A stretch of 64,000 bases of DNA, from positions 62,001-126,000 of the forward strand of contig CAJNDT010005768.1 in assembly GCA_905221615.1 (NCBI GenBank), given 5' to 3'. The position numbers and the translations under genes are program-made. This DNA is from Symbiodinium sp. CCMP2592 (taxonomy: Eukaryota > Sar > Dinophyceae > Suessiales > Symbiodiniaceae). Below, in pieces: positions 33,038 to 51,349 of the stretch (position 1 is its first letter; each line of letters opens with the position of its first letter). The notes beneath the pieces are model-generated. The model was not told the origin of the DNA. It saw only the letters and a program-made list of their open reading frames with translations, and ran no database searches.

Positions 33038-33392
33038 CCCACGCAATCACACACACAGACACAAGAAGAAGAAGCCACACGAAATCGTTTTATGGAGTTT
33101 TTGCGAAGAAAATAAAATGAGAAAAGCAGACTTAATGAAACAAAACACAATCACAACCACAACAGAAGAAGAAGCCATACGAAACAAAACTAAAATGAAA
33201 AAAGACACAAACTCAAACCACACACAATGACGAACACAAAGAACAAGAAAGCCACGCGAAATTGCTTTATGGGTTTTTGCGAAGAAAATAAAATGATAGA
33301 AGAAGAAAAAATGAATAACGCACAAACACAAAAGAAGAAGAAGCCACAGAAATCGCTTCTTGGTGCGTTTTGCGAAGAAAATACAATGTAGC
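33038..33392 (+). repeat. A-rich tandem repeat block, left cluster
   Basis: Several degenerate copies of a unit start with ACGCAATCACACACACAGAC and continue through AAGAAGAAGAAGCCACACGA, TTTTGCGAAGAAAATAAAAT and GAAACAAAACACAA. Copies begin near 33038, 33160, 33240 and 33320. Better preserved copies lie at 34900-35165. The unit is about 80-125 bp. Confidence 0.75.
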
Positions 33393-33394
33393 AA

Positions 33395-33545
33395 GGCTTC
33401 GAAACCCCCCTTCATCCCCCCCTTCAAGCCCCCTTCAAGCCTCCTTCAAAGCCCCCCCTTCAAGCCCCCTTTAAAGCCCCTTTAAAGCCCCCTTCAAAGC
33501 CCCTTAAAGCCCCCCTTCAAAGCCCCTTCAAAGCTCCTTGATACA
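33395..33545 (+). repeat. AAGCCCCC-type pyrimidine-rich repeat, left tract
   Basis: A degenerate repeat of CCCCTTCAAAGCCCCTTTAA words, with C runs of 4-7 separated by TTCAAAG or TTTAAAG. The complementary strand is G-rich. Confidence 0.75.
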
Positions 33546-34563
33546 GGTGAGTGCAGAAGGGCGTATCGTGCGTGCCCCAGCACTCAGCTTGATGATGCAG
33601 GCGTTTCAACTCTCGAGCCATCGAGACACTGCCATTGTCTGTGGCGCAGCAGCGCTCCCTTGGCGAGCATTTTGCATTTGCCAGGGCTGAGCGTTGTGTT
33701 CCAACTCGCTTGTGCAGCTGATCATGTCTGAACAGTGGTTGGACCAATCCAATGATGATTCACCTGCCTCTTTTCGAAAATCCGAAGTTGTATCAATGCA
33801 AACGTGCCGCATCACACCGACCCAGAGAACGCCATGCGCTTCTACATGGCAGCTGGAGCGAAAGAACGCCCACTGGCAGCAACAAGTTGACCACACCGGC
33901 GCACAAACGCCTATGGCAACTCACTGCATACAGCTCGCAACAGCAGTACGCAGCAACTACCGAAACTACTTATCAGCGACCATCCTGCATGCCATCCAGC
34001 CATTGCTGGAGGCGACGCTCCAAGTCACCGGGTGGAGCTTGCCCTGGCTTCTCCACGACGTTGGGTGTGTGCTCGAGATAATCCACCAGGTACAGGAAGA
34101 CTTGATGCGACGGCGTGCCTTCGGCCACGTTGAGCTTGCGTGAACCATGATCCGCTAGGGATCGCAACACTTAAGTAAGTCATCGCACAGTCTTGACCTT
34201 TGCAACAGCGTGTTTGACCGACTTGAGTTGCTGGCGGGCGCGACCTCTCCGGTGGCAAGAATTACGGACACTTGTCAGGTGACGTCTCTCTTAGACGCAA
34301 CCTCTCAGGTGGCAAGTCCGCAAATTCTCCCAACCTTCTTTCAGGTTCCGCCAGTCTGCAATGGAGTTGACAAATGTCTTGTATCGCAGTTTTCCTTTCA
34401 AGTTTTCCTTCTGTTCCGAACTCATGGCGAGGACGGCAGCTTCTTCAGCTCTCGCTGTGCGGCGGTCTGGGGCTCTGATCACTACGGGAACTGCTGGGCG
34501 TGATCGCTTAAGGTTTCGGAGTCTCGTGCAGGAGCTGAGGAGTCGTCGTCGTCGAGCAGCCAA
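33517..34563 (-). pseudogene. possible N-terminal exons of the MULE element
   Basis: Three minus-strand blocks look coding: AEEAAVLAMSSEQKENLKGK with FVNSIADWRNLKEGWENL (about 34310-34450), KLNVAEGTPSHQVFLYLVDY with PPGDLERRLQQWLDGMQDG (about 33976-34145), and QRSALANAKCSPRERCCATD (about 33630-33690). They lie on the same strand and upstream of the MULE transposase blocks, so they may be its N-terminal region cut by repeat insertions. The frames differ and no known domain was recognised. They could instead belong to an unrelated gene. Confidence 0.3.
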
Positions 34564-34577
34564 TCGTCCCCTACAAG

Positions 34578-34899
34578 ACGAGGATGGGCCCCACCCCCTT
34601 TGACAAAGGGGGGCTTAAGTCCCCCTTGAAGCCCCTTTAAAGCCCCCTTTAAAGGGGTCTCCCCTAAGGGGGGGGGCAAAGGGTCGAACCCTTTAAGCCC
34701 CCCTTAAAGCCCCTTTAAAGCCCCCCCTTAAGCCCCCTTCAAGCCCCCCTTTAAGTCCCCCTTTAAGCCCCCCTTAAGTCCTTTTTAAGCCCCCCTTTAA
34801 GCCCCCCTTAAGCCCCCCTTTAAGTCCCTCTTTAAGCCTCCCCCCTTAAAGCCCCGCTTTAAGCCTCCCGGAAGACCCCCTTAAGCTCCCCTTTTAAGC
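34578..34899 (+). repeat. AAGCCCCC-type pyrimidine-rich repeat, main tract
   Basis: Over 300 bp of TTAAAGCCCCC, TTTAAGCCCCC and TTTAAGTCCCC words with slight period drift, interrupted at 34650-34690 by its own inverse (CTAAGGGGGGGGGC). The complementary strand has regularly spaced G runs. Confidence 0.8.
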
Positions 34900-35165
34900 T
34901 CCCACGCAATCACACACACAGACACAAAACAAGAAGAAGAAGAAGCCACACGAAATCGTTTTATGGGGTGGTTTTTGCGAAGAAAATAAAATGAGAAAAG
35001 CAAACTTAATGAAACAAAACACAATTACAAGCCTCCCACGCAATCACACACGCACAAAACAAGAAGAAGAAGAAGAAGCCACACGAAATTGTTTGATGGT
35101 GGGTTTTGACCAAGAAAATAAAATGAGAAAAGCAGAGTTACACTAATGAAACAAAACAAATGAAC
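34900..35165 (+). repeat. A-rich tandem repeat block, right cluster
   Basis: Two good copies, about 34900-35028 and 35035-35165, of the same unit as 33038-33392. Both start CCCACGCAATCACACAC and contain AAGCCACACGAAAT, AAGAAAATAAAATGAGAAAA and ATGAAACAAAACA. Confidence 0.8.
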
Positions 35166-35180
35166 AAACACAAAAAGAAG

Positions 35181-35345
35181 CCCCGCTCTTCAAGCTCAAC
35201 TCCTTCAAAGCCCCTTGAAGCCTCTTCAAAACCTCCCTTAAAGCCCCTTTAAGTCTCTTCAAAGCCTCTTGTCAAAGTCTCCCTTTGCTTACCCCGTTAA
35301 AGCCCCTTTAAAGCCCGTTACAGTCCCTCTTAAGTCCCTCTTTGT
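35181..35345 (+). repeat. AAGCCCC-type repeat, right tract
   Basis: More diverged copies of the pyrimidine-rich repeat (CCTTCAAAGCCCCTTGAAGC and similar) up to 35345. They alternate with the A-rich repeat in the same order as at 33.0-33.5 kb. Confidence 0.65.
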
Positions 35346-41851: not shown

Positions 41852-43319
41852 CCAGGCGAAACAATGCACCGGCTCTTGGGCTCTCTCCCAGACTCCGAAG
41901 CGTAAGGCGGTAGCATTGGCCCCTCCTCAATCCTGTTTGACTCGGTGCCAGCGTAGGAACTTTCACAAACGGTTGAGGCGTTCAAAGAAAGCAATCGCGG
42001 CCAGGAAGCATAAAAGGAAACTCGCCTGCTTTAGGGCTTCGTCCGTCTGGGGTATTCGTAAACAGGGCCATCTGACCATCGGTACGTGGAACACGAGGGG
42101 TTTGGGCGCCCCTCAGGGAAAAGATCCTGCCGGCCGGCAAGGTGGAGGCAATCATGCGTCTGGTCGCAGAGCGACAGTGGAGCTGTGCGCTCCTCACTGA
42201 TTTACGTTTTCCGGAAGATGGTTTTCGTGAGGTTATGGTGGGCGGTGCCTCCTGGCTCCTTATCCACGAGGGCCGGGTATAGGTGTAGCGCTTAACCCTT
42301 TCTTGGCCGCCAAGTGGAGGCAAGGGGGTTCGGTTTTGGTTAAGGGGCGTGGGTGGTCGGGTAATCCCAGGGCGTTCGGAGTGTCTATCCCGGGCTCAGG
42401 TTGGAAGCCAGGCTTTCTCTTGGTCCCGGTGTACGCCCCGTTGGTGTCGAAAACAACGTTGGAGGAAAGGGAGGCTTTTAGGGAACAGTTGAGTTTGATC
42501 CTTGACCACTCGTCCAGTCGGCGTCGGCTCGTGGTTGGTGGGGATTTCAATGGTGAAGTGGGGCCTACCAAGGACTCGTCTTGGCGTCACGTTTTGGGAC
42601 CGTATGGGGACGATAGGCGCACGCGTGGCGGGGAGGAGTTGCTGCAGTTTTGTGAACAGGAACACCTTGTGGTAGCAGGCTCCTTCACACCCCAACGCCA
42701 AAAAGCTACCTGGTACCACTGTCGGTTTGGCACCGCCCACACACTTGATCACTTTCTGGTCCGTGGCGTTGACAAAAAATGGGTCAAGTCGGTCTTTACT
42801 GTGAATTTTGCCGCCAATCAGCGTTGCAGCAAGACATCGAGGCAAGGTCGTCCGCCCAAGTTCTCGTCTGCCCCCTGGCTTGAGCATACGGACCATGATC
42901 CGGTGGAGCTTGTTATTCGGGTTGGGAAAGATTGGGCTGGGGAAGCACAGCGTAGGAGAGAGCGGGCCCCTCGACCGGATGTTTTGCGTTTCCTGGGCTG
43001 TTCGGAGGAAGCTGCGGCTCTGCGGCGTGAGTATGCGAATGTTGTTTCCGAGGAGTTGGAAAGGGTTTCAGGTCAGTTTTTGGATTGGGACTTGGTGGCC
43101 GAGGTCATGAGGAAGTCTGCGTTCCAGGTCGTCGGTCCCACCCCCCCACGGCACAGAAAACCTTGGTTGCAGGGTAAAGAAGCGGAGCTGCTAGAGCTGG
43201 AAACTGCGGTGCATGTCGCTGAGGAAAACCTTCGGGAGGCTCGTCGACAGGGATCTTCACAGGTAGATTCTCTTCTGGAGATTCGTCGTCGTAGCGCCAA
43301 GCGCCGGTGGGAAGCCTAA
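41852..43319 (+). pseudogene. non-LTR retrotransposon ORF2: AP-like endonuclease part, frameshifted
   Basis: A basic N-terminus (RCQRRNFHKRLRRSKKAIAA) leads into an exonuclease-endonuclease-phosphatase domain. LTIGTWNTRGLG (about 42073-42108) is in one frame, and VEAIMRLVAERQWSCALLTD to WLLIHEGR (about 42145-42270) is in a second. LVPVYAPL, VVGGDFNGEVGP (about 42530-42565) and TDHDPVEL (about 42888-42911) are in a third. The Asn/Asp/His residues of the fold are thus present, but two frameshifts (near 42115-42145 and 42270-42280) break the N-terminus. The frame ends at TAA 43317-43319, although the same frame continues as the RT part. This would nick target DNA for target-primed reverse transcription. 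Confidence 0.8.
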
Positions 43320-46190
43320 TGGTGGAGCGATCTGGCGGTTAAGGCCAATCGAGCGGGGGAGGAGGGGGATGACTATGCCTTTTGGCAGGTGTGTCGTCAG
43401 TTGGGCTTCAGGGAGTCATGTCGCGCATATGGTGGTTCGTTGCGCACTTGCGGTGATGCTGTCAGGGAAAGGGAGGCCTGGAAGGATTTTCTGCACAATA
43501 TCCAGTCGGGTGAGGGCGAAGTTTCTGAAGCGGTCTGGGATTACATTCCACCCGCCACGGCAGAAATTTCCGTTTTAGGGGAGGAGCCTACTAGGCAAGA
43601 GTTTCGTGACGTGCTGCGTAAAATGAAGGTGGGCAAACGCGGTGGGGCAGATGACATCACGGTGGAGATGATTAAGTTTGCGAACTCTGATCTTCAAGAC
43701 ACGGTTTTTCTGGTGGTCCTTGATATGTGGAATGATGCTAGGCTCTCGGATGACGGACACGAGGCTGACAAGTGGTGTCAGTCCTCCAAGGACGGTGTGT
43801 GCATCCCAATGTACAAAAACAAAGGGTCCAAAGATGACAAAAACAATTATAGGAATCTGGTCATGCTCTCAGTTTCAGCCAAAATTGTGGCCCGCATTGC
43901 TGCCAGCCGTCTGAGCAAGTGGCTGGAAACATGGATGCCGGAAGAACAAAATGGTTTTCGCACCGGTAGGGGTATTGATGATGTGCAACAGTTTGTTCGT
44001 CGGCTGCTGGAGGAGGTCTCGGTCTCTGCCAAGTCTGCGTGTGTGGGAATGACATGTTTTGATATCGTCCGTGCTTATACGCGTGTCTGTCGAGACGCTC
44101 TCTGGCATCTGCTTTCCCGTCTCGGCATTCCGGACTCTTTTTTGAAAGTGCTTAAAGCATTGCACAACCACACTTCCTTCAGGGCGTTTGTGCATAATGG
44201 TTACTCTACCGCCTGGCTCACGGAGCGTGGCCTGCGTGAGGGATGTCCTTCATCTCCTGTGTTGTTTTCCATTTTTCATCACGCTATCATGCTAACCTTT
44301 AGAGTTGTGATGTTCTCAACCCACACATAAGGGTTTTTTGTCCGAAATTGTAAAACACAAATAAAACTCGGCTGAAACTCAGAACATAGACTCCCCCAAA
44401 ACTCAGTTCAATGTACACAGAAACTCGTTTAAAACTCAACCAAAATACAAATCAGACTCAGTTTCTGCCCCAGAACTCACAGAAAACTCGGGCAAAACTC
44501 AGAAATAATTCAAAACTCAGAACAAACTCGGACAAAATTCGGACAAAACTCGGAAAATACTGGGAAAATACTCAAAACTCCAGGGCCCCAAAACTCAGCC
44601 CAAACTCAGCCAAGGAGGGCTCCAAAACTCAGCCAAAACTCAAAACACAGCCTCCAGGAGGCTTTTGGGGCCTGGGAGGCCGGGCAGGAGGAGGGCCCCA
44701 AAACTCAGCCAAAACTCAACCAAAACTCAGCCAAAACTCAAAAGGGCTGAGGAGGGCTCCAAAACTCAGCCAAAACTCAAAACACAGCCTCCAGGAGGCT
44801 TTTGGGGCCTGGGAGGCCGGGCAGGAGGAGGGCCCCAAAACTCAGCCAAAACTCAACCAAAACTCAGCCAAAACTCAAAAGGGCCCGGCAGGAGGGTGCG
44901 CCTCCTCCCAGGCCCCAAAAGCCTACTGGAGGCTGTGTTTTGAGTTTTGGCTGAGTTTTGGCTGAGTTTCGGCTGAGTTTTGGTTGAGTCAATGGTTTCA
45001 GGCTACGATTCGTGCTGAGTTTTTGGCTGACCCTTGGTCTGAGTTTTGATTGAGTTTGCGCTGAGTTTTATTTGTGTTTGGAATAAAACCATCAAAACGC
45101 CTATGTGTGGGTATGAGAACATCACAACTTTAGAGGTCGTCGGGCCCGTGCCGCGGAGTCGTCTGGAGGGACACCTGGCATTACCTGTACCTGGTCTTAC
45201 AAGGTTGATGGGAAACTGGTCAGATCAGGCCGCGCACGTCATTCCTCTCGGGGTATCAGGTCCAATGTCGTTGGGGACGTGGAGTTTGCCGATGATACTG
45301 CCTTGTTGGGATGGGTGGAGGAGCTCCGAGTGGCGGAACGGCTGTTTGTGCAAACATTACGGGATTGGGAGCAGGAGGAACATCGGGGCAAACGGGAGAA
45401 GCTCATGCTGGTTCCTGGTGGGAGATTAATTTGGGAGGTTTTGAATGAGTTTGAAGCTAAGACCCTCAAACACTTGGGCGCCACTCACTGTGACAATGCT
45501 GACCAGTGGGCGGAAACCAAAAAACGTGTACAGGCTGGTTTCTATGCAGTCAAGCGGGTGGCTAAGTATTGGTCTCTGGGTACAAGTCACGGCAGGGGAG
45601 CTGGCATGGGTCTTCATACTACCAAAAGGCTACGGGTTATGCGTGCGGTCGTTGAGGGTACGTTGATGGCTTGTGGCAAATCTAGGGTGTGGAGTTTGGC
45701 ACAGGAGCGGAAAGCTAATCAAGTCATGGCTCGGGGCATTCGTCGTTGTTTGGGTGTGGACAGGTATAACATGCGTGAGTATGGTTACTCGGACGAGGCC
45801 TTGCGACAGATGGTGCAGTGGAATTCCTTCACTACTCTAATGCACAGAAGTATTCTCCTTTGGTTGGGGCATGTCACCAGGATGAATTGTGATCGTCTTC
45901 CCAAGATGGCAGTTTTTGGGTGGCTGGAGGGTTTGGAAGAGCATCGCTCGGCTCGATACACCTTCCCGAGTTGGGTACAATGGCTGTTGTCCAAATACAA
46001 CATCTCGGTTATGGACTGGTTCAGATTAGCACAGAAACCGACCAAGAATTGGATTAGGTTGATCAACCAGGCTCTGCCCCGCACTCGTCTGTCTAGCAAA
46101 CAGTGTGTAATCCTCGATAGATGGAAGGTCGGTGACCCCGTTCTACAATGGTCAAACCTGGCGCCCCCCCAGGAGTTTCCCCCCCCAAGC
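43320..46190 (+). pseudogene. non-LTR retrotransposon ORF2: reverse transcriptase, interrupted
   Basis: In the same frame as the endonuclease, past the in-frame TAA: the finger region KMKVGKRGGADDITVEMIKF, then YKNKGSKDDKNNYRNLVMLS, EQNGFRTGRGIDDVQQFVRR, motif A CFDIVRAYTRV (about 44056-44090), and motif B GLREGCPSSPVLFS (about 44228-44270). An 823-bp DNA element at 44305-45127 then interrupts. Motif C VEFADDTALLG resumes at about 45278-45310, followed by a thumb region (LKHLGATHCDNADQW), RGIRRCLGVDRYNMREYGYS and LLWLGHVTRMNCDRLPKMA. Removing the insert with one copy of its target duplication leaves an open frame. Motif A keeps the first Asp, and FADD keeps the catalytic pair, so the RT was intact before the stop and insertion. 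Confidence 0.85.
44305..45127. mobile_element. non-autonomous foldback DNA transposon (823 bp)
   Basis: The two ends are inverted repeats of about 28 bp: TTGTGATGTTCTCA then CCCACACATAAGG on the left, and on the right the complement of TTGTGATGTTCTCATACCCA. The insert is flanked by a perfect 8-bp direct repeat CTTTAGAG (44297-44304 and 45128-45135). The interior is made of AAAACTCAGCC words on the left and their complement CTGAGTTTTGG on the right. It also has a 137-bp tandem duplication (44614-44750, 44751-44884) and a 41-bp inverted arm pair (44776-44816 with 44904-44944, one mismatch). It encodes no transposase. An 8-bp target duplication is usual for hAT elements, but the TIR start does not match the common CAG ends, so the superfamily is unassigned. 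Confidence 0.85.
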
Positions 46191-47604
46191 CCCGGTGGAG
46201 CTACAGTGTCCAGCTTGCTCCTTCGTCGCCAAAAATGCTAGGGAATTGCAAGTGCACTATGATGGGACGCACGCTGTTCAAAATGCAGCTCTCACCACTG
46301 TTAGTGTGTCCAAATGTCCCCTGTGTGGACAAGTTTTCGTATATGGTCGTCATCAATCAAAGCACAGATGCCCTGCCAAACCACACACCTTGGATGACCT
46401 TGCCAAAATGCAATCCTACCCTGTCCTCCAGGCCCCTTCAGCAGACCCACCTTCTGAATTTACCAGTTGGCGTTTGTTTACGGATGGAGCAGGTCCCTGC
46501 CCGGGAGCTCCTTTTGCAGGTTGGGGGAGGCTTCTGCTTCGCTCGAACCCAGTTTTGAACTTTTCGGCCCGGTCTGTCTTTGCCCCCCACGACAAGCGTT
46601 TTATGGGTGCGATAGTGGCAACCAACAATGTTGGGGAACTTAGTGCCATGGTAGAGGCGCTCCTGTGGTTGGAATCCGAGGCTCCGGGCCCCAGTGACCT
46701 GCCCGCTACCATCTTCTACGATTCCTCCTATGCCTATGCCTTCAATGCCATCACTGGAACTGGTGAGCCAGTTGAAAACCCTGACTTGGTTAGGTACGCT
46801 CGAAACGTTTTTGCAAGAGTGGCGGCTGTGAGAATAGTGCAGTTTTCCTATGTTAAAGGTCATTCGGGAAATGTTGGCAACGACAAAGCGGATGAACTCG
46901 CCGGTCTGGGTGCGCGAGGACAGCAAACCAAACAATCCCTACGATGGCTGCTCCCCGCCTGTGCACCCCCACCGTTGGACCCCTTGCTCGTGGATCATTG
47001 TTGGCGTTGTAAACGAGTTTTTTCGGGGGAGTCGTATGCGCGTCAGTTAGCAGGTCACGAGGCACATTGTGCGGTGGAGGCAGCGGCTCCAGCCAACATT
47101 CCGTGTCGACATCTCTGTGGTAAAGTTTTTGAGTGGAAGCACGCTGTAATCCAGCCGGGTAAACACACCCATCATGCGCGAGAAGTAAGGAGTATGCACG
47201 AAAGGATTTGCCGTGGTTCAGACGCGTTGACAAGGACTTGCCCGTTTTGTGAAGAACAGTTTCCTCTGGGTGTCACGGACGAAACAATTTTCAAGCATCG
47301 TGGATCGTGTTCAAGTAGACCTGATGATGCACCTTCCCTTCTCCCCACCTGGCGTTGCCCCCGGTGCAAATCTGCATTCGCTGTGGCCAAACAGCAGAGC
47401 CATGAATCACAGTGTAGAGGGTCGGTTAAGGCTAATCGTGAATGCCATATGTGTAAGTGTTCGTTTCAAACGGTGGATGCCAGGGTCAAGCATGAAGAAG
47501 AGTGTCGTGGATCTGAGGTCGCAAACCGCACTTGTTCCGTATGTGGTAAAATTTGTGGGCAAATCGGGAGTCGCATTGCTCATGAACGTCGCTGTGGAAG
47601 GTAA
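46190..47604 (+). CDS. non-LTR retrotransposon ORF2 C-terminal part: zinc fingers and RNase H
   Basis: This frame is offset by one base from the RT frame. The switch happens in C-rich DNA (runs of C at 46162-46190). It begins with two C2H2-type fingers (CPACSFVAKNARELQVHYDG and CPLCGQVFVYGRHQSKHRC). A type I RNase H domain follows: WRLFTDGAGPCPG (about 46470-46505), NNVGELSAMVEALLWL, IFYDSSYAYAFNAI, and KGHSGNVGNDKADELAGLG (about 46855-46910). The four catalytic acids (Asp, Glu, Asp, Asp) are present. The C-terminal ~200 residues carry at least five further Cys/His clusters such as CPFCEEQF, CPRCKSAF, CHMCKCSF and CSVCGKIC. RNase H removes the RNA strand during reverse transcription; the fingers probably bind nucleic acid. 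The stop is at 47602-47604. Confidence 0.85.
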
Positions 47605-49671: not shown

Positions 49672-49905
49672 TGGGCAGCTCATCCGTAGTCAAAATTGGT
49701 CTCAAAATCCTTGCTCGTATTGTGCCGTTACCAAACCGGTCGTTTGCGAGTTCTTTCACTGCAACCTTTGAGGCTGATGCTTCCGACAATCATGATATCG
49801 CAACATGATCTGTCTGCCTCGTGACAGTGAGAGTTCGGGTGCCACTGCAGTAAGATGGGGGAGACGTCCTTTTGGTTTTGAAGGGATATGAACTGATGAC
49901 GCTGG

Positions 49906-51339
49906 GGTGACGGATCAAAAAAATTAAATATGGATCAAAAATTAAAGCACAAAGATCAAAAAAACTTAAAGGCAGGATCAAAAAAATATATCAGTACTTC
50001 CGCCACAGAATCACACAAAAAACAAGGGGTGATCGAGGTTGACGTATCAAAAAAAATTTAAAATTTGGATCAAAAAAACGAATTCAAAAAAATAAAAACA
50101 GTATCAAAAAGGTTAAATCAGTACTTACCTTTTGCCCAGCTAAAGCGATGTCATGTGTCTCGACAAGTTAAGAAAGCGAGCAGTTCATGTGGCTTCTCCC
50201 TCTCTTCGTTTTCCAGAGAGACTCACGTTGTCGTTTTACCTTTGTTTTCTTGTTTCTTGCTCTTGGCTTCCAAAAGCGAATACATCTGGCTTTCGCCCTT
50301 TTGCCTGTCGGTGAAGACGTTTCATTCATGAGAAATCTTGTATTCTTCGACTTTTAAATTTTAAATCCCCTGAAGTGTTTTCGTGTGGCTTTGTCCTCGT
50401 TGTGCGTTTAGAAAAAACGCCTTTAAGTCATTTCAACGACAGCTTAAGAAAGCGGGCAGTTTGCAGTTAAAAAACGGGGGGGCGGGGGTTGGGGGGGTGA
50501 AGACGTTTCATTTACGAGAAACTTTATCTTCGTCGCTTTTTAACCGTTTTCGTGTGGCTTTGTCTTTCTTGTGGGTTGGAAAAAAAGAGTCTTTAATCCA
50601 TTTCATCGACAGCTTAAGAAAGCGGCAGTTTGCACTTAAAAAACGGGGGGGTTGGGGGGGGCGCAGCCCCCCCCCCACATTCTACCTCAGTCTCTAAGGG
50701 TAACGTATAAGGAATCACAGCAGTATGTGTCCTTCATTAGGTCTCCAACTCTTTCGGGTTTACTGTATGGAAAGATGCTATGGGGAAAATAGCTTTGTAT
50801 TCAGCTCAGCTTTCAGACTTGTAAGCGCAGTTAAATGGGATCTAGGGTGCGGGTTTGCGGTTTCGAGGACTCGGAAGAAGCGGACGACGAGACTTGTGTT
50901 TGCTCTTGCGGCGTTTGGGCTAGGCTTTCGGGTTTACGGCTTTGGGTTTGTAAGTCTACACTTTAAAGCCAGCAGGCAGTCATCGACGATTTGATCTTCA
51001 GATTCTGGCGCGTGGGTGATCACCTTCCTTTCCTTCCATTTCCTTTCATTCCCTCTTGCTTTTCTTTCTTTGTTTCTTTCTTCACTGCTTCCTTGCTTTT
51101 CTCCTTCCTTCCTTCCTTACTTCCTTCCTTCCAGCTTTTCTCTTTCCTGCCTTCTCTCCTTCCTTCCTTCTTTCCTCCTTCCCTCCTTTTCTCCTTCCCT
51201 CCTCCGTTTCGTGCTTCCCTCCTTCCTTCCTTCCTTCCTTTCTTCCTCCTTCCTTCCTTCCTTTCTTCCTTCCTTCCTGTCGTGGTTTCGGCTAGGTTAT
51301 TTTTTTTGATCCAAATTTAATTTTTTTGATGCCGATCCC
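49906..51339. mobile_element. TIR element with 10-bp target duplication (1434 bp)
   Basis: The perfect direct repeat ATGACGCTGG occurs at 49896-49905 and 51340-51349. Just inside, the ends are inverted: ATCAAAAAAATTAAATATGG on the left and, as complement, ATCAAAAAAATTAAATTTGG on the right. The left end continues with more ATCAAAAA words up to 50110. The interior has a ~175-bp imperfect direct repeat (GTGAAGACGTTTCATT through AGCTTAAGAAAGCG(G)GCAG to AAAAAACGGGGGG) at about 50311-50490 and 50498-50655, with a diverged start near 50155. It then runs through unique DNA into a TTCC polypyrimidine tract. A 9-11 bp duplication points to a Mutator-like, non-autonomous element. No transposase is encoded. 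Confidence 0.65.
51025..51285 (+). repeat. TTCC polypyrimidine tract
   Basis: About 260 bp of nearly pure C/T on the plus strand, mostly CCTT and TTCC units, inside the right part of the TIR element. Frames reading LPSFLPSFL are translations of the repeat. Confidence 0.85.
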
Positions 51340-51349
51340 ATGACGCTGG

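Follow-up and report, generated by a model that had tools for sequence, protein, structure and literature searches.

A foldback-like insertion with opposed 11-bp repeat arms in the reverse transcriptase frame of a dinoflagellate LINE, probably a non-autonomous DNA transposon

What interrupts the reverse transcriptase (RT) of a LINE-like retrotransposon in this dinoflagellate DNA? Within the window, i.e. the whole 64-kb stretch analysed, two portions of one RT frame are separated by a segment with inverted ends and a highly repetitive interior (Table 1). The earlier note had taken it for a DNA-transposon-type insertion of foldback-like anatomy in an otherwise continuous RT frame. This interpretation stands, with the amendments that the arms are unequal and that the 8-bp duplication is the likeliest of three possible lengths; the accompanying suggestion of an undescribed family is conjectural for a single copy. 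Our best explanation is a foldback-like DNA transposon of the cut-and-paste kind (class II, TIR-type), non-autonomous and moved in trans, to which, judging from the sequence of a single copy, we assign a probability of about 85%. Paired inverted ends, a flanking duplication, opposed 11-mer arms and an RT frame that reads through once the insert is taken out all support it. Counting against it are the single copy, with mobility deduced from one insertion, the unequal arms, the lack of an RVT_1 match for the right RT flank by itself and the lack of a transposase in the open reading frames scanned.

In the LINE-like retrotransposon (42231-47601), the RT is preceded by a weak endonuclease match, to Exo_endo_phos_2 (E 0.0013, 19.0 bits against a cut-off of 27.4), and followed by an RNase H match (E 1.5e-11). 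The right RT piece, taken alone, gave no RVT_1 match even at E up to 10; it holds FADD in frame, at the place where an RT catalytic motif is expected. The insert and one duplication together measure 831 bp, or 277 codons, and the RT frame is stop-free over the joined flanks of 68 and 60 bases, which translate as EGCPSSPVLFSIFHHAIMLTFRGRRARAAESSGGTPGITCTW. The claim that the RT frame is continuous once the insert is removed is thus borne out, and the empty site is reconstructed solely from this continuity. The LINE is damaged beyond this insertion, since an in-frame TAA (43317) lies between its endonuclease and RT parts and its RNase H part is in a different frame from the RT.

Table 1. Features of the insertion and of the interrupted RT, in window coordinates
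Feature	Position	Strand	Remarks
Host RT, portion 5' of the insertion	43320-44304	+	RVT_1, E 2e-15, profile 3-137 of 205, for 43320-44297
Target-site duplication CTTTAGAG, left copy	44297-44304	.	6- and 4-bp readings also possible
Element	44305-45127	.	823 bp, 47.4% G+C
Left terminal inverted repeat, begins TTGTGATGTTCTCA	44305-44337	+	31/34 columns match right end
Left subterminal inverted block (AAACACAAATAAAACTC...)	44353-44381	+	90% complementary to 45051-45079
Outer left array, degenerate AAAACTCGGA-type 11-mers	44363-44577	+	mostly without right-arm counterpart
Inner left array, near-perfect AAAACTCAGCC 11-mers	44590-44880	+	
Tandem duplication, 137-bp unit	44613-44886 (44613-44749 + 44750-44886)	+	TRF period 137
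Central G+C-rich hairpin	44881-44915	.	35 bases, 13 pairs
Right array, 11-mers oppositely oriented	44931-45069	-	
Right subterminal inverted block	45051-45079	-	90% complementary to 44353-44381
Right terminal inverted repeat	45094-45127	-	31/34 columns match left end
Target-site duplication CTTTAGAG, right copy	45128-45135	.	
Host RT, portion 3' of the insertion	45136-46238	+	same frame; FADD at 45285-45296

The octamer CTTTAGAG lies directly on each side of the element. It occurs twice in the whole 64-kb window, exactly at these two borders, and its reverse complement does not occur there. Together with the inverted ends and the continuous RT frame, this confirms an insertion with a direct duplication in a retrotransposon RT, as first proposed. 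The length of the duplication, given then as 8 bp, has to be qualified. Because CTTTAGAG has complementary bases at its two outermost positions (C/G, then T/A), three lengths share one and the same empty site, with alternative boundaries at 44304/45128 (6-bp TTTAGA) or 44303/45129 (4-bp TTAG). The element ends would read TTGTG with the 8-bp duplication, GTTGTG with the 6-bp and AGTTGTG with the 4-bp one. By our own reckoning, with equal base frequencies assumed, the complementary bases would be coincidental with odds of 1/16, 1/64 and 1/256 for the 8-, 6- and 4-bp readings, respectively. For this single copy, 8 bp is therefore likeliest, favoured 4:1 over 6 bp and 16:1 over 4 bp, prior left aside.

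The ends form a perfect 14-bp inverted repeat, followed by a 1-base indel within the longer alignment of Table 1. The window holds one exact 12- or 14-bp inverted repeat bordered by an 8-bp duplication, against an average of 0.0 over 100 first-order Markov resamplings. Gapped scanning with 8-bp flanks gave the element a score of 46, compared with at most 20 for 10 shuffles. When the requirements were relaxed to an 8-bp repeat with a 7-10-bp flank, the result was near chance (4 rows in the real sequence, 0 to 3 in 5 shuffles), so the strength of the insertion signal lies in the long ends. The element carries both terminal inverted repeats (TIRs) and edge duplications, as TIR-type (class II) DNA transposons do.

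Could such a transposon be mimicked by a misassembly, or by satellite DNA that was caught in a double-strand break? The interior is indeed satellite-like, there is one copy only, and near-perfect tandem duplications like the 137-bp one can arise as assembly artefacts. Capture does not, however, predict matching inverted ends precisely at the edges of direct repeats, a combination (12-/14-bp ends with 8-bp flanks) absent from all 100 resamplings. Moreover, the AAAACTCAGCC unit is scarce elsewhere in the window: 20 of its 22 matches at up to one mismatch fall inside the element. We consider capture or misassembly highly improbable.

Another reading makes the element an introner, a DNA transposon removed from transcripts like an intron. 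Symbiodinium microadriaticum is on record as having introners with TIRs and 4-bp duplications, and Amoebophrya as having repeat-bounded ones (PMC9860276, PMC7789003), and a 4-bp duplication (TTAG) is a possible reading here. Near the edges of the element, 5 of 18 pairs of a GT, GC or GA donor and an AG acceptor keep the frame. One of these five is a GT-AG pair (44312 to 45133, 822 nt), which would add three codons. None of the 18 pairs, however, has the 831-nt length needed for exact restoration of the reading, and the host retrotransposon shows no sign of selection on that reading, given its TAA and the frame change before RNase H. We consider this reading, too, highly improbable.

The interior fits the foldback-like transposon preferred above. 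With up to 2 mismatches, the AAAACTCAGCC 11-mer occurs 18 times forward and 0 times reverse at 44305-44874 (both copies of the 137-bp duplication counted), and 0 times forward and 7 times reverse at 44897-45127. In 200 shuffles, the corresponding counts (left forward, left reverse, right forward, right reverse) had means of 0.64, 0.025, 0.01 and 0.185 and maxima of 4, 1, 1 and 3. A satellite-like interior in two opposed halves had been claimed. The opposition is clear from these orientations; the halves, on the other hand, are far from equivalent, the arms flanking the central loop being very unequal (~591 nt left, ~227 nt right). The right arm has no second 137-bp unit and little of the outer left array. 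The 137-bp duplication was found as described, in tandem in the left half, with 135 of 137 positions identical and the final two differing. A 41-bp hairpin was not recovered at that size: the hairpin found is the shorter one of Table 1, which alone only modestly beats shuffles (z -2.1; 8 of 200 fold equally well).

As a single strand, the whole element folds at -211.2 kcal/mol, whereas 20 shuffles averaged -104.8 and none was as low (z -15.6). By this fold, inverted repeats form most of the element, as in foldback elements, though the arms are partly unmatched. Tandem repeats within the inverted repeats, also a foldback feature, are present as the opposed 11-mer arrays.

Mismatches to the 11-mer unit are distributed unevenly along both arms. 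On the left, the inner copies carry 0, 1, 0, 1, 0, 1, 0 and 3 mismatches and the 15 outer copies 1 to 4; on the right, the inner copies carry 0, 1, 0 and 1 and the 7 outer copies 1 to 4. This comparison omits the second 137-bp copy, as well as three left-half rows on the reverse strand that, with 3-4 mismatches, were taken to be chance matches. For inner versus outer copies, the Mann-Whitney P values (0.0011 left, 0.036 right, 6e-5 both) are descriptive only, because the inner/outer split was set by eye after the counts had been seen and the repeats are not independent. The pattern suggests that 11-mers at the centre are younger than the outer ones.

The element was also described earlier as having no coding capacity, and in effect this holds. 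The 11-bp repeats are traversed by a 191-codon frame free of stops (44390-44965), whose two weak Pfam matches (E 0.044 and 0.29) are both under curated cut-offs. This frame is probably a by-product of the 11-bp repeat. The window has 64 ORFs of at least 150 aa; a Pfam scan of 26 of them, whole or in part, showed no transposase, and a search of Rfam returned nothing at gathering score.

Other copies were sought in the window and in several collections. The 14-base end, at up to 3 mismatches, had 8 matches in the window versus 7.1 expected, and was exact only at the two known ends. Comparison of the element with the rest of the window gave a best E of 0.42 with blastn and nothing with nhmmer. 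The element end had no match in IMG/VR or in prokaryote genomes, two repeat patterns none in the viral collection IMG/VR, and the whole element none in phage and plasmid records; the RT piece gave one pattern match in IMG/VR, unconfirmed. As none of these collections includes a dinoflagellate genome, the absence of further copies weighs little either way. In the literature, no title on such an element was present among the matches listed for six 11- to 13-base pieces, nor one on a dinoflagellate foldback element among the matches listed. A link of the 11-mer with the dinoflagellate spliced leader was considered and dropped: the leader was unmatched in the window at up to 3 mismatches, an uninformative result.

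Elsewhere in the window, at 33040-35343, arrays of 11-12-bp CCCTTTAAGCC-like units alternate with modules of 59-60 bp (AAGAAGCCACACGAAAT and GTTTTTGCGAAGAAAATAAAATGA) that recur with identities of up to 97%. A second candidate TIR element, of 1,435 bp (49905-51339), emerged when the window was scanned for direct duplications around inverted ends. It is bordered by a 9-bp duplication, ATGACGCTG (49896-49904 and 51340-51348), of which a tenth base matches too, and its ends read GGG...ATCAAAAAAATTAAAT(A/T)TGGATCAAAAA. The scan score was 39 versus a best of 22 in 20 shuffles, and 35 versus 19 in 10 shuffles. Several further GGATCAAAAA-like subterminal repeats lie just within its left end, and direct repeats at 169-186-bp spacing, 81-86% identical, occupy 50310-50625 in its interior. 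Its GG ends and 9-bp duplication fit the reported Merlin elements, and this single copy, in which no transposase was seen, may be called Merlin-like. The presence of two such insertions, unrelated to each other, within 7 kb suggests that the stretch is rich in transposons.

How might the foldback-like element have arrived and taken its form? A transposase encoded elsewhere would bind the ends and excise a copy. The LINE RT would be cut with a stagger, most likely of 8 bp, and the excised copy joined to the cut ends; filling of the gaps by host repair would leave CTTTAGAG doubled. Less securely, the 11-mers, which recur about once per helical turn, might serve as accessory transposase sites that aid end recognition and synapsis. 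The model is Galileo of Drosophila, whose transposase THAP domain is reported to bind sites in the tandem repeats of its long TIRs (PMC3688188); transferred to this element, the analogy is tentative. Likewise less certainly, the arms may grow and homogenise from the inside via slippage or unequal exchange, as proposed because the inner repeats are near-perfect and the 137-bp duplication almost identical. A bolder proposal, which we regard as unlikely, is an undescribed protist foldback family whose arms are little else than 11-bp repeats in helical phase, with renewal proceeding outward from the centre. If it were true, each element would breed its own satellite DNA and might seed 11-bp satellite arrays in the host.

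Assignment to a known superfamily would refine the transposon identity and does not compete with it. A Mutator-like element would be most plausible, with P, hAT or another 8-bp-duplication superfamily less so; we rate membership of this kind at somewhat under even odds. Mutator-like elements are described as having target-site duplications of 8-11 bp and TIRs often of hundreds of bp, which suits the anatomy seen here, where 8 bp is the likeliest duplication and 6 and 4 bp are possible. In addition, most foldback elements are believed to be Mutator-like (PMC4079207). Against this, Galileo shows that P-superfamily elements can acquire foldback anatomy too (PMC3573991), and neither a transposase nor a family consensus is at hand; duplication length alone is indecisive, and here it is ambiguous (8, 6 or 4 bp).

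Taken as a single copy, the element is a genetic parasite of a known kind whose insertion is well preserved and otherwise ordinary. Should other copies exist, they would define a foldback family beyond the hosts treated in the cited papers, and would provide a terminal sequence for tracing its transposase. Its 11-bp arms would then allow a test of such repeats as extra transposase sites versus by-products of hairpin instability, and also of whether such transposons give rise to satellite DNA.

Several known systems, as described in the papers cited, resemble the element. The introners of Symbiodinium and Amoebophrya are likewise non-autonomous and TIR-bounded, with short flanking direct repeats, but they are introns, whereas the element has no splice pair restoring the frame exactly (PMC9860276, PMC7789003). 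Dinoflagellate Merlin elements have 8-9-bp duplications, comparable with the 8 bp likeliest here (6 and 4 bp possible), and Merlin copies in Symbiodinium kawagutii combine imperfect TIRs and internal tandem repeats, as does the element (PMC8101967). Their TIRs, however, start with GG and they encode a DDE transposase, neither of which the element has (PMC8101967); Merlin identity was rejected, the ends beginning TT, GT or AG in the 8-, 6- and 4-bp readings. Tm1 of root-knot nematodes, compared by description, shares composite foldback-like TIRs with internal repeats and comprises MITE-like and transposase-encoding groups; it differs in being Mutator-type, with duplications most commonly of 9 bp (PMC3169594). 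Galileo of Drosophila has long, internally repetitive TIRs, and the repeat number can be unequal between the two TIRs of one copy, as between the arms here. It differs by a known P-superfamily transposase, 7-bp duplications, a repeat region of ~210 bp and TIRs of ~0.3-1.2 kb (PMC3573991, PMC3688188). Finally, Tetris of Drosophila virilis (PMC4079207) lives in another host, in several known copies, with TIRs of up to 1,735 bp built of ~220-bp repeats versus the 11-bp unit here. In common with the element, it is described as having foldback anatomy, tandem repeats in its TIRs and no conserved ORF, its three complete copies are flanked by 8-9-bp duplications, in line with the likeliest 8 bp of the element, and the length of its arrays varies by duplication of one unit (PMC4079207), a further likeness.
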